Source of the DNA: a bacterium
GTDB taxonomy: Bacteria > BMS3Abin14
Direction: 5' to 3'
DNA: 64,000 bases
Assembly: GCA_029210965.1 (NCBI GenBank)
Contig: JARGFZ010000011.1
Location: 1-64,000, forward strand
Positions 42,677 through 46,539 of this stretch are shown here, in pieces (the stretch's first letter is position 1; every line of letters begins with the position of its first letter). The notes under the pieces are model-generated. The model did not search any database. It was given only the letters and a program-made list of their open reading frames with translations, and had not been told where the DNA came from. The translations under genes and the position numbers were made by a program.

Positions 42677-42746
42677 AAAACCGTTTTTTCCCTTTGCCCT
42701 GTCGTTGACTGCTCTGAAAACAATGTGTTAAAAAATTCCTGACATT

Positions 42747-42796
42747 TTCGGTGGTGGAGTTCGCCTCAACCGCTCGCAAGAGCCGATGACTCCTGT
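42747..42796 (+). ncRNA. Fluoride riboswitch (crcB motif)
   Basis: The sequence carries the conserved parts of the crcB/fluoride aptamer in order: GGTGGTGGAGTTCGCC, TCAACCGC, a short CTCGCAAGAG hairpin, then CCGATGACTCCTG. The 5' GGAGT region can pair with the 3' ACTCC to close the outer helix. An intrinsic terminator begins inside the last bases of the aptamer. The downstream gene is a cation/proton antiporter, one of the classes known to be controlled by fluoride riboswitches. Confidence 0.85.
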
Positions 42797-42817
42797 CCCA
42801 GGGGACGGGTTTTTTTG
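42792..42817 (+). terminator. Riboswitch-controlled intrinsic terminator
   Basis: CCTGTCC, loop CAGG, GGACGGG, then seven T residues. The left arm overlaps the 3' end of the fluoride aptamer (CTCCTG), so aptamer and terminator should be mutually exclusive: fluoride binding would allow readthrough into the antiporter gene. Confidence 0.85.
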
Positions 42818-42913
42818 TGCAAAAAAAGTGAACCGTGAACAAGAAACTGACCGTATGTAATTTTCCCGGTTCACTATTCACACTTCACTGTTCACTGCAG
42901 GGGAGAAACCTTC

Positions 42914-44374
42914 ATGGCCCTCAGCCTTGCCTTCATAGTCCTCGCCGGTCTACTGGCCGACGCCCTTTTTCGCAGGATGCGCTTGCCCGGGCTTGTGGGA
43001 ATGCTTATCGTTGGTGTGCTGGTGGGCCCTCATATGCTGGACATCCTCAGGCCGGACATGATGGCGGTCTCGGGGGATTTCCGTAAGATAGCCCTTATTG
43101 TTATCCTGCTCCGTGCAGGCCTTGAGCTGCGAAGGGACATTCTGCACAAGGTTGGGCCCTACGCCGTGACCATGAGCGCCGTTCCCGCTATTTTCGAGAT
43201 CACGGCAATCACTCTTCTGGCTCCCCCTCTTCTGGGGCTTTCCTGGCCGGAGGCGGCTATTCTTGGGAGTATCCTCGGCGCCGTTTCCCCCGCTGTCGTC
43301 GTCCCCCTCATGATCGATTTCATGGAAAGGGGCAAGGGCTCGGAAAAAGGGATCCCCACCCTTATTCTGGGGGCATCGGCAATTGACGATGTTTTTGTCA
43401 TTGTCATCTTTACAGTACTCCTGGGGATGTACGGTGGGGGACCGGTCAACTGGGTTTGGCAGGCCGCTTCCATTCCCATTTCCATAATTCTCGGCATCCT
43501 TCTCGGCCTGGCGGTCGGTTATCTGCTTTACCGGCTGTTTCGCCGGTACGATCTCAAACCTCCACGGAGAACGATCATCCTTATGGGGGTGGCTATTCTC
43601 CTGACATGGGTGGAGGATATTCTTCACGGCATCCTCCCGATCTCCGCACTCCTTGGCGTCATGGCCATGGGATTCATAATCCTTGAAAAACAGGAGGCAA
43701 TCGCACACATCATCTCCTCCAAGCTCAAGCACCTCTGGGTCTTTGCGGAGCTGCTGCTGTTCGTCCTTGTAGGTGCTCAGGTGAACATAAAGGTCGCCTG
43801 GGAGGCCGGTCTTGCCGGGGGTCTACTGATCCTGGCAGGCCTTGCTGCCCGCAGTGTGGGAACCTGGATATCTCTCGCGGGCAGCGGACTGGACGCCAGG
43901 GAAAAGCTGTTCGCCGTTGTCGCCTATATTCCCAAGGCCACCGTGCAGGCGGCCATCGGGGCCATCCCTCTCGCCGCTGGGCTTCCCGGTGGTGAGGTCA
44001 TTCTGGCCGTAGCTGTCCTTTCCATCCTTATCACAGCGCCCACCGGGGCCATCGGCATCAAGTTCCTGGGGGAACGGATCCTTCAAGAGAGTAAACGTTC
44101 ACCCTACAGCTTCAAGGAACTGCGTCAAAGTCTGGGCCTTCCCCATGTGGGTGAGCGTATTATGGAAATCGCTACAGGCCATATGTGGAAGGTCATCGAG
44201 GAGAAGGAGTCCTGGCACGAATCCGAGTCCGGCGATCCGATACCGGCCATCGTTCTGAGGATATGGGAAAAAGGTGATGAAACGGCGATCGGCAGCGGTC
44301 CCACACGGTACCTGAAATACACACCTCTGGAAGAACCCTTCGGGAGGAAGTGGGAGGTTGTGTATGGGAAATAG
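42914..44374 (+). CDS. Cation/proton antiporter (CPA family) under fluoride riboswitch
   Basis: 486-residue inner-membrane antiporter with about 12-13 helices. The ion-binding pair appears as ASAIDDVFVIVIFTVL, the DD form typical of CPA2 and related exchangers; other conserved blocks are LRAGLELRRDILHKVG and LGSILGAVSPAVVVPLM, and IPKATVQAAIG near helix 11. The last about 90 residues form a cytosolic tail (WKVIEEKESWHESESGD) longer than the minimal transporter core and of unknown role. GGGGAG precedes the ATG. The fluoride aptamer and terminator 100-170 bases upstream suggest a role in fluoride or acid tolerance. Direct transport of fluoride by this family is not established. Confidence 0.87.
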   Translation: MALSLAFIVLAGLLADALFRRMRLPGLVGMLIVGVLVGPHMLDILRPDMMAVSGDFRKIALIVILLRAGLELRRDILHKVGPYAVTMSAVPAIFEITAITLLAPPLLGLSWPEAAILGSILGAVSPAVVVPLMIDFMERGKGSEKGIPTLILGASAIDDVFVIVIFTVLLGMYGGGPVNWVWQAASIPISIILGILLGLAVGYLLYRLFRRYDLKPPRRTIILMGVAILLTWVEDILHGILPISALLGVMAMGFIILEKQEAIAHIISSKLKHLWVFAELLLFVLVGAQVNIKVAWEAGLAGGLLILAGLAARSVGTWISLAGSGLDAREKLFAVVAYIPKATVQAAIGAIPLAAGLPGGEVILAVAVLSILITAPTGAIGIKFLGERILQESKRSPYSFKELRQSLGLPHVGERIMEIATGHMWKVIEEKESWHESESGDPIPAIVLRIWEKGDETAIGSGPTRYLKYTPLEEPFGRKWEVVYGK

Positions 44375-44674: not shown

Positions 44675-46539
44675 AGCCGCAGGCATGCGCGAGAGAACCA
44701 GCGATACGCCTCATAAATTCACCAGACCAAGGTCAATGAAGTGACGGTAGAGGCTCACGTTCTTCGGAGGGCGATAACGCCGCTGGCTCCGCCGCCCAGG
44801 GTAGACGGCCAGACGATGCTGTGTGTGCCGGTTGAAGTCACGCATGACCTTTCGAGAGTAACCAAACTCGAAGTAGTTGGCCCAGCCGCGCCGATGTCTG
44901 TTGAGCATCAGGATGAGCGCCGATATCGGCAGGAAACAGATTTTACTGCTGGTCATGTCCCGCAACCTCCCGCGTTCCTTCAGTACGGCCTTCTTCGACG
45001 GGGTCACGTTCAGATAGTTGTGGCTCCGACCGCGAAGATCCCGATCGTACCGGAACGTGAAACCGAGGAACTACAGACTGGACCTCGCTGTCTTCAGATC
45101 GACCACTCTGGTCTTGTCACGGTTGACCTCCAGCCCCATTCGGGCTACCAGGACCTTTTTCATTCACGTCTGCAACCGGACTCCCTGATAACGCGCCATG
45201 ACTACAAAGTCATCGGCGTACCGTACCAGTTTCGCGTTCGCCCACCGCGCCGGACCTCCCGGACCATGGAAAAACGTGTCGAACCAGTGCAAAAAGATAT
45301 TTGCCAGCAAAGGGGATATTACTCCTTCTTGAGGCGTTCCCTTGCGGCTGCGCCGAGGGGGACTGCCGTCCTGCTCCACCACGGGCGCCTCAAGCCACAT
45401 CCGGATCAACTTCAGGACCGACCGGTCCACGATCCGCATGCGCAACGCCGCCATGAGCTTGTCGTGCGGAATCGAATCAAAGTAACCTTTCAGGTCCGCG
45501 TCATATACCTCCCGAAACCCGGAATGGATATGGTCCCGAATCGCGGTGAGCGCCTGGTGGGCCGAACGACCCGGCCGAAAACCGTACGAACAATCCAGAA
45601 AGTCCGCTTCAAAGATCGGTTCGAGCACCAGCACTGCCGCCGTCTGAACCACTCGATCCCTCACGGTCGGGATGCCCAGAGGACGTTCCTTTTCGTTGGG
45701 TTTGGGTATATAGACGCGACGCACGGCCTGGGGACGGTACCTCCTGGAACGAAGCTCCTTGTGGAGTTCCTCCACAAGACCCTCGGGGCCTCCCTCCGCA
45801 TGCTCGATCTGGGCGATCGTCACGCCATCGACTACGGGCGCACCCTTGTTGGCGCGCACCTGATCCCAGGCCGCCTTCAGCACATCCCGCCGATAGATCC
45901 GGTCATACAGCACGTAGAACCGGAACTTCGGCTCCCGCTTGGTTTTTTGGTACAGCTTCTGTCGCAGGGAGGAGAGTTTGGGCGGAAGGTCGCGCCGCTC
46001 ACCCCACTTGGGAGGTTCGTCCAGCTTCCATTCCCATTCGTCCGTAGTGCAGCTTCTGCTGAAGCGGCACTCCTCTCTTTGTCCACCAGCGTGCACCCGA
46101 CAGGGTCCCTTCGCTCCACGGGCATTACCCCGCTTCCTCACGACTATGAACCCCGCCGACTCCCAAACGGTCCCGACATCTCGCTTATGGCTTCGCAAAA
46201 TGCGTTGGGTTCCACCCAAACCGATGGGCCTCCCAGGTTCCTCGATCAATCTTTCGACACGCGCCGTCCCCAACCACCCCGGGATGCCCCACGGGTGCAT
46301 ACGCTCGTTGCTTCCCCGCGGATTACAGGCTTCAGCAACTCTGGAAGATTGACCGCATCCACTTTGCGTAATGAGGCCGAATCGGGTTCGCTTGCGCTAC
46401 GGCTCGCGCCTTCGCGTCAGGAGGCTTCGACGTACAGGTTACCCCAATACGCCGCTCCATCGGCTACATGTGCGTACGAGCAATTCACACGGTGGGCTCC
46501 TTTCATCTTACGGGATTGACCAGGCTTAACCTGGCGCAC
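44675..46539 (-). mobile_element. Degenerate bacterial group II intron
   Basis: The minus strand begins with GTGCGCCAGG (46539 downward), a normal 5' end of bacterial group II introns, and continues through a structured region into the reverse-transcriptase/maturase frame. The frame is interrupted by two stop codons. After the maturase ends near 44711 I cannot find the domain V hairpin (the usual GAGCCG...CGGTTC element), so the 3' ribozyme end is lost or heavily changed. The exact 3' boundary is therefore a guess. The 5' junction lies in a 'ctctgcgacctct' repeat word, so the intron landed in intergenic repeat DNA. A dead, non-splicing copy is the best reading. Confidence 0.75.
44711..46300 (-). 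pseudogene. ltrA: Group II intron reverse transcriptase/maturase, interrupted
   Basis: One frame runs the whole length with two stops. The N-terminal RT0-RT7 region is intact: [88 protein letters not shown], and the catalytic [11 protein letters not shown] follows GVRLQT (45164-45166). The frame continues NRDKTRVVDLKTARSSL to TAG (45071-45073), where homologues have a residue before FLGFTFRYDRDL. The maturase X domain (NRHRRGWANYFEFGYS, LYRHFIDLGLVNL) closes the protein. All these parts are in the same frame, so no indel is involved. Loss of function is expected. Confidence 0.85.

Follow-up and report, generated by a model that had tools for sequence, protein, structure and literature searches.

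The 64,000-nucleotide stretch of bacterial DNA analysed here (the window) carries a fluoride riboswitch ahead of a single gene for an NHA2-type cation/proton antiporter (Table 1). We consider it likely that fluoride turns this gene on, that its product probably relieves the acid load brought by HF, and that it is the main fluoride-induced defence of the lineage. The locus belongs to a published type, the fluoride riboswitch placed before an Na+/H+ antiporter; after the fluoride exporters, such antiporters are the next-most common class associated with the riboswitch (PMC11139923, which cites Baker et al. 2012). While antiporters are already known as targets, the reason may be pH repair or direct handling of fluoride. 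A genome in which an NHA2-type antiporter is the sole fluoride-induced gene, and which lacks Fluc and CLC-F, is a clean test case; the exporter-free setting, a rare G-C form of the aptamer and recurrent GTPase and tail neighbours add to the interest of the locus.

A fluoride aptamer had been called at this place by the sequence-only reading, which proposed running the Rfam model RF01734 on it. In a cmscan of the whole window the model matched with 41.9 bits against a gathering threshold of 34 (E 3.1e-8), and the claim is borne out by the structural elements, all of which are present. P1 pairs 42750-42753 with 42762-42765 (read from the sequence), P2 pairs 42772-42775 with 42780-42783 around a GCAA loop, and the pseudoknot has five pairs (42756-42760/42789-42793, GGAGU/ACUCC). 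The linchpin A40-U48 (A40 at 42786, U48 at 42794) and the conserved U41 (42787), whose roles have been described (PMC8752731, PMC11077080), are intact. Position 6 is G42754 and position 38 is C42784. This was the single match to RF01734 in the genome assembly (3.19 Mb, 99% complete).

The same reading proposed that a terminator reuses the 3' end of the aptamer, and this too held. The terminator RNA reads CCUGUCC-CAGG-GGACGGG-U7, with the hairpin at 42792-42809 followed by seven U. Its left arm starts within the aptamer, using the last three aptamer nucleotides (C46, C47 and U48), so that the folded aptamer and the terminator are predicted to be mutually exclusive. Among 138 aptamers, a helix between the aptamer 3' end and the downstream RNA reached a score of at least 8 in 111 of 138 real cases versus 31 of 138 with shuffled downstream DNA, and a competing helix together with a T-rich tail was found in 52 real versus 2 shuffled cases; the window's own 7-bp hairpin falls slightly under this score cut, yet has the T-rich tail. 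The minimum free energy of the 80-nt leader was unremarkable (z -0.6), in a thermodynamic folding that cannot represent the pseudoknot.

The layout is that of a predicted fluoride-ON transcription switch upstream of one gene. In fluoride-free conditions C46, C47 and U48, the 3' strand of the aptamer, would join the terminator hairpin and transcription would stop before the gene. Binding of fluoride and Mg2+ would lock the pseudoknot and the A40-U48 linchpin, the terminator would not form and the antiporter would be made. The overlap and the studied homologues both point to this direction of switching: in the Bacillus cereus switch, the terminator is blocked once fluoride has locked A40-U48 (PMC8752731, PMC11077080).

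A dedicated promoter upstream of the aptamer is putative. TTGACT with a 17-nt spacer and an A/T-rich TA-like box has the same location in three class-mates (L198, L199 and L099), and a stricter scan gave no consensus promoter. The antiporter gene starts about 100 nt beyond the terminator, behind a spacer made of a dispersed heptamer repeat. With at most one mismatch, GTGAACCGTGAAC has 119 copies in 2.34 Mb of the genome, and the heptamer-repeat spacer is missing from the leader of the class-mate locus L198 (genome G003).

Table 1. Features of the riboswitch-antiporter locus and of related loci (positions are those of the window unless another locus is named).
Feature	Locus	Position	Strand	Basis or detail
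Putative dedicated promoter	window	42705-42734	+	by eye; TTGACT, 17-nt spacer, TTAAAA (or TAAAAA, spacer 18)
Fluoride riboswitch aptamer RF01734, G6-C38 subtype	window	42741-42802	+	Rfam cmscan of whole window
Covaried long-range tertiary pair G6 (42754)-C38 (42784)	window	42754-42784	+	138-aptamer comparison
Intrinsic terminator (expression platform)	window	42792-42816	+	7 bp, 4-nt loop, T7, -10.8 kcal/mol
Leader spacer of dispersed GTGAACC-type heptamer repeat	window	42817-42905	+	repeat search; contexts
NHA2-type (SLC9B-like, CPA) cation/proton antiporter, 486 aa	window	42914-44374	+	Pfam, phmmer, AlphaFold fold match
Antiporter C-tail domain, small beta-rich fold	window	44090-44371	+	no Pfam family; stand-alone copies elsewhere
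Maturase GIIM domain of broken group II intron	window	44711-45007	-	domain match
RVT_1 of broken group II intron	window	45164-46300	-	domain match
Stand-alone C-tail	L048	6146-6433	+	
Stand-alone C-tail	L057	2428-2742	-	
Stand-alone C-tail	L071	457-780	-	
Stand-alone C-tail	L072	447-731	-	
GTPase behind aptamer, antiporter loci	L025, L027, L040, L048, L058, L061, L062, L071, L072, L007			

The regulated gene had been labelled a CPA antiporter, a correct label that homology and fold narrow to the NHA2/SLC9B type. The protein matches Pfam Na_H_Exchanger (E 1.1e-48, 166.5 bits against 26.2), and among solved proteins human and bison NHA2/SLC9B2 are nearest to it (phmmer E 5.3e-45 for human NHA2). 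An AlphaFold model (mean pLDDT 81.6) gave NHA2 structures 7b4l and 7p1i as the best Foldseek matches (E 3.4e-18, TM about 0.69/0.75). Residues 1-390 form the membrane domain and residues from about 393 to 486 the C-tail domain. The ion-site residues D158, D159, E95, R313, K341 and T343 are invariant in 58 relatives and align with bison D277, D278, E214, R431, K459 and T461, the NHA2 residues discussed for electroneutral exchange, most of which are named in PMC8850199. Since all six are kept, the protein is predicted to be a cation/proton exchanger, probably electroneutral, that most likely swaps Na+ (or Li+) for H+. The 14 TM segments with an extra N-terminal helix that mark mammalian NHA2 were not found, the protein starting about 120 residues later, and we therefore call it NHA2-like rather than an NHA2 orthologue. 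Viral contigs yielded no relative of the antiporter.

That the antiporter is the only target, as first proposed, agrees with the one riboswitch in the genome and with the next downstream ORF lying on the other strand. Downstream lies a broken group II intron protein (44711-46300, minus strand) in two separate ORFs; this remnant occupies the spot where class-mates have a GTPase, or nothing, before a convergent acyltransferase.

The link between riboswitch and antiporter is conserved well beyond the window, and the antiporter belongs to a set of fluoride-controlled genes with a wide distribution. We took 80 antiporter relatives, of which about 76 had upstream DNA that could be used. In 31 of these ~76, across Thermodesulfobacteriota, the antiporter orthologue is directly preceded by an aptamer, and in five more the order is aptamer, GTPase gene, antiporter. 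In about 40 nearby orthologues no aptamer stands closer than 450 nt to the gene; fluoride control of the antiporter is therefore not universal. Riboswitch presence clusters on the antiporter tree (12 changes versus 18.4 after shuffling, with 0 of 500 shuffles as low), and the riboswitch appears to have been repeatedly gained or lost along it. Within the window's class, the linkage is found in the class-mates L095, L097 and L099, and TTGACT with a 17-nt spacer precedes all four aptamers, the window's included. In another class-mate locus (L003, genome G009), a half-deleted aptamer at about 2940-2995 retains its 3' half and the terminator, the 5' half having been replaced by the end of an M20 peptidase gene.

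Other targets of the riboswitch were seen as well. In a broad genome sample judged by eye, the commonest fluoride-riboswitch target, above CrcB, was a second antiporter family (like that at 4579-5838 of L071; loci L082, L089, L117, L122, L124, L131, L133, L138, L139 and L140). A protein of ~210 aa with a GCPxC motif stands behind fluoride riboswitches at four loci in two phyla (L086, L100, L118 and L119), and each of L048 and L071 has three separate fluoride riboswitches in one 7-kb locus.

A search of the window's genome with the PF02537 profile returned no CrcB/Fluc, in an assembly where 10 of 14 controls gave a signal. The genome does encode two CLC proteins, both canonical in their motifs (GHGVP, GREGP and GIFAP) and with C-terminal extensions, and neither has CLC-F-type filter motifs; a riboswitch-linked CLC (L137), by contrast, has GNN and GREGT. 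With neither Fluc nor CLC-F found, the antiporter would be the main fluoride-induced defence in the lineage. A search of 56 genomes, of which ~54 carry the antiporter, likewise gave no CRCB; in a related phylum, to which one of the 56 belongs, 176 of 395 genomes (45%) have it. For the 48 genomes reached through the loci, one class-mate of the window included, the contrast gives a Fisher p of about 5e-12 when relatedness is ignored.

The antiporter would probably exchange Na+ or Li+ for H+ and offset the acid load from HF entry. A fluoride or acid-stress role, suggested by the first reading, agrees with the published association of antiporters and riboswitch (PMC11139923).

Raising the internal pH would itself trap more F-, which leaves an explanation by pH alone less than fully satisfactory, and with Fluc and CLC-F absent the antiporter may act more directly in fluoride resistance. 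The antiporter might itself be a primary fluoride-resistance transporter, exporting fluoride or a fluoride-coupled species in place of Fluc and CLC-F. We regard this as unlikely, although it would fit the CRCB counts, the want of a CLC-F-like CLC in the window's genome and the position of the antiporter as the only fluoride-riboswitch gene there. The invariant NHA2 cation-site residues argue for cation/proton exchange and not for anion transport; the exclusion of Fluc could reflect lineage, the 56 genomes being concentrated in few orders; and the CLC-F comparison covers the window's genome alone. The reading that we prefer remains cation/proton exchange under fluoride control.

The neighbourhoods of related antiporters hold two further candidate partners. 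A dynamin-like GTPase of ~600 aa (Dynamin_N) lies directly behind the fluoride aptamer in ten antiporter loci, at four places in the window's class (L084, L087, L088 and L091) and in three loci of other phyla (L125, L136 and L142); it is often a neighbour of the NHA2-type antiporter, and in G009 it directly follows the antiporter. On this gene order the GTPase appears to be a recurrent co-target of the fluoride riboswitch, and its recurrence suggests that fluoride stress has a membrane or GTPase aspect. In the window's genome, a search of 2.34 Mb (73%) found no GTPase homologue. The literature searched, mostly without subscription papers, held no fluoride riboswitch paired with a dynamin, a weak sign of novelty. 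The second candidate is the C-tail domain, which matched no Pfam family and, by fold, nothing significant in the PDB. In L048, L057, L071 and L072 the domain also stands by itself, as a protein of ~95 aa, and in L071 and L072 this protein comes after the GTPase in an operon led by a riboswitch. It is conceivable, if rather doubtful, that NHA2-type antiporter, dynamin-like GTPase and small C-tail protein together compose a fluoride-induced module that replaces Fluc and CLC-F. If true, such a module would be a primary fluoride defence in this lineage and in many Thermodesulfobacteriota, and more than a pH helper.

The aptamer of the window departs from the usual form at one tertiary contact. In the Thermotoga petrophila aptamer, A6-U38 is a long-range reversed Watson-Crick pair, a geometry that admits both A-U and G-C (PMC11586693, PMC10687018). 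We compared 138 distinct aptamers of many families, a count that leaves out two further candidate sequences and whose register allows for an A at position 42; pair 6-38 was A-U in 128, G-C in 10 and mixed in none. This perfect covariation supports the tertiary contact and backs, by sequence alone, what was seen in the crystal structure. The G-C form was found in at least five separate families, and G-C aptamers ahead of the antiporter were also found in three other genera of the window's class. We suggest that G6-C38 is a rare, functional-looking alternative to A6-U38. Two other ideas were set aside: that the G-C pair is unique to the window's lineage, since it is present in four other families, and that it senses pH through a protonated C-G Hoogsteen pair, since 6-38 is reversed Watson-Crick (PMC11586693, PMC10687018). 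The pattern tried on viral contigs returned no G-C aptamer. The rare tertiary pair and the genome without Fluc and CLC-F were both missing from the sequence-only reading.

Because A6 and U38 are conserved in the Rfam consensus and both differ here, the aptamer might instead have decayed or been altered to a constitutive state, with G6-C38 abolishing fluoride sensing and the terminator alone still acting; the half-deleted copy in L003 speaks for it. We think this very improbable. The change is compensated, as the lack of mixed pairs and the recurrence across families indicate, the linchpin, U41, pseudoknot, P1, P2 and terminator are all intact, and copies with the same pair persist before the antiporter in the three other genera. 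Slightly less probable still is a G6-C38 subtype that responds to another ligand or at a shifted threshold: the change falls on a core tertiary pair, and G003 and G011 each have an A-U aptamer before the dynamin-like GTPase and a G-C aptamer before the antiporter, but A-U aptamers control orthologous antiporters elsewhere, which indicates the same ligand, and the contacts to fluoride and Mg2+ come from backbone oxygens, not from the base edges of 6-38 (PMC11586693).

Set beside known systems, the protein has the fold and all six ion-site residues in common with NHA2/SLC9B2 (PDB 7b4l, 7p1i), whereas it is bacterial, is without the N-terminal extension and ends in a beta-rich tail. With the Na+/H+ antiporters already described under fluoride-riboswitch control (PMC11139923) it has the regulator and the broad target class in common; here the antiporter is of the NHA2/SLC9B-like kind, has a C-tail domain in addition and is the sole fluoride-induced gene in a genome without Fluc or CLC-F. 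The CLC-F and Fluc exporters share the setting of fluoride-induced membrane transport, but their protein families are unrelated to it. The Bacillus cereus crcB switch has the same aptamer fold, pseudoknot, A40-U48 linchpin and U41, and likewise a terminator that consumes the 3' strand of the pseudoknot; pair 6-38 is A-U there and G-C here, and the target there is crcB, while here it is the antiporter.
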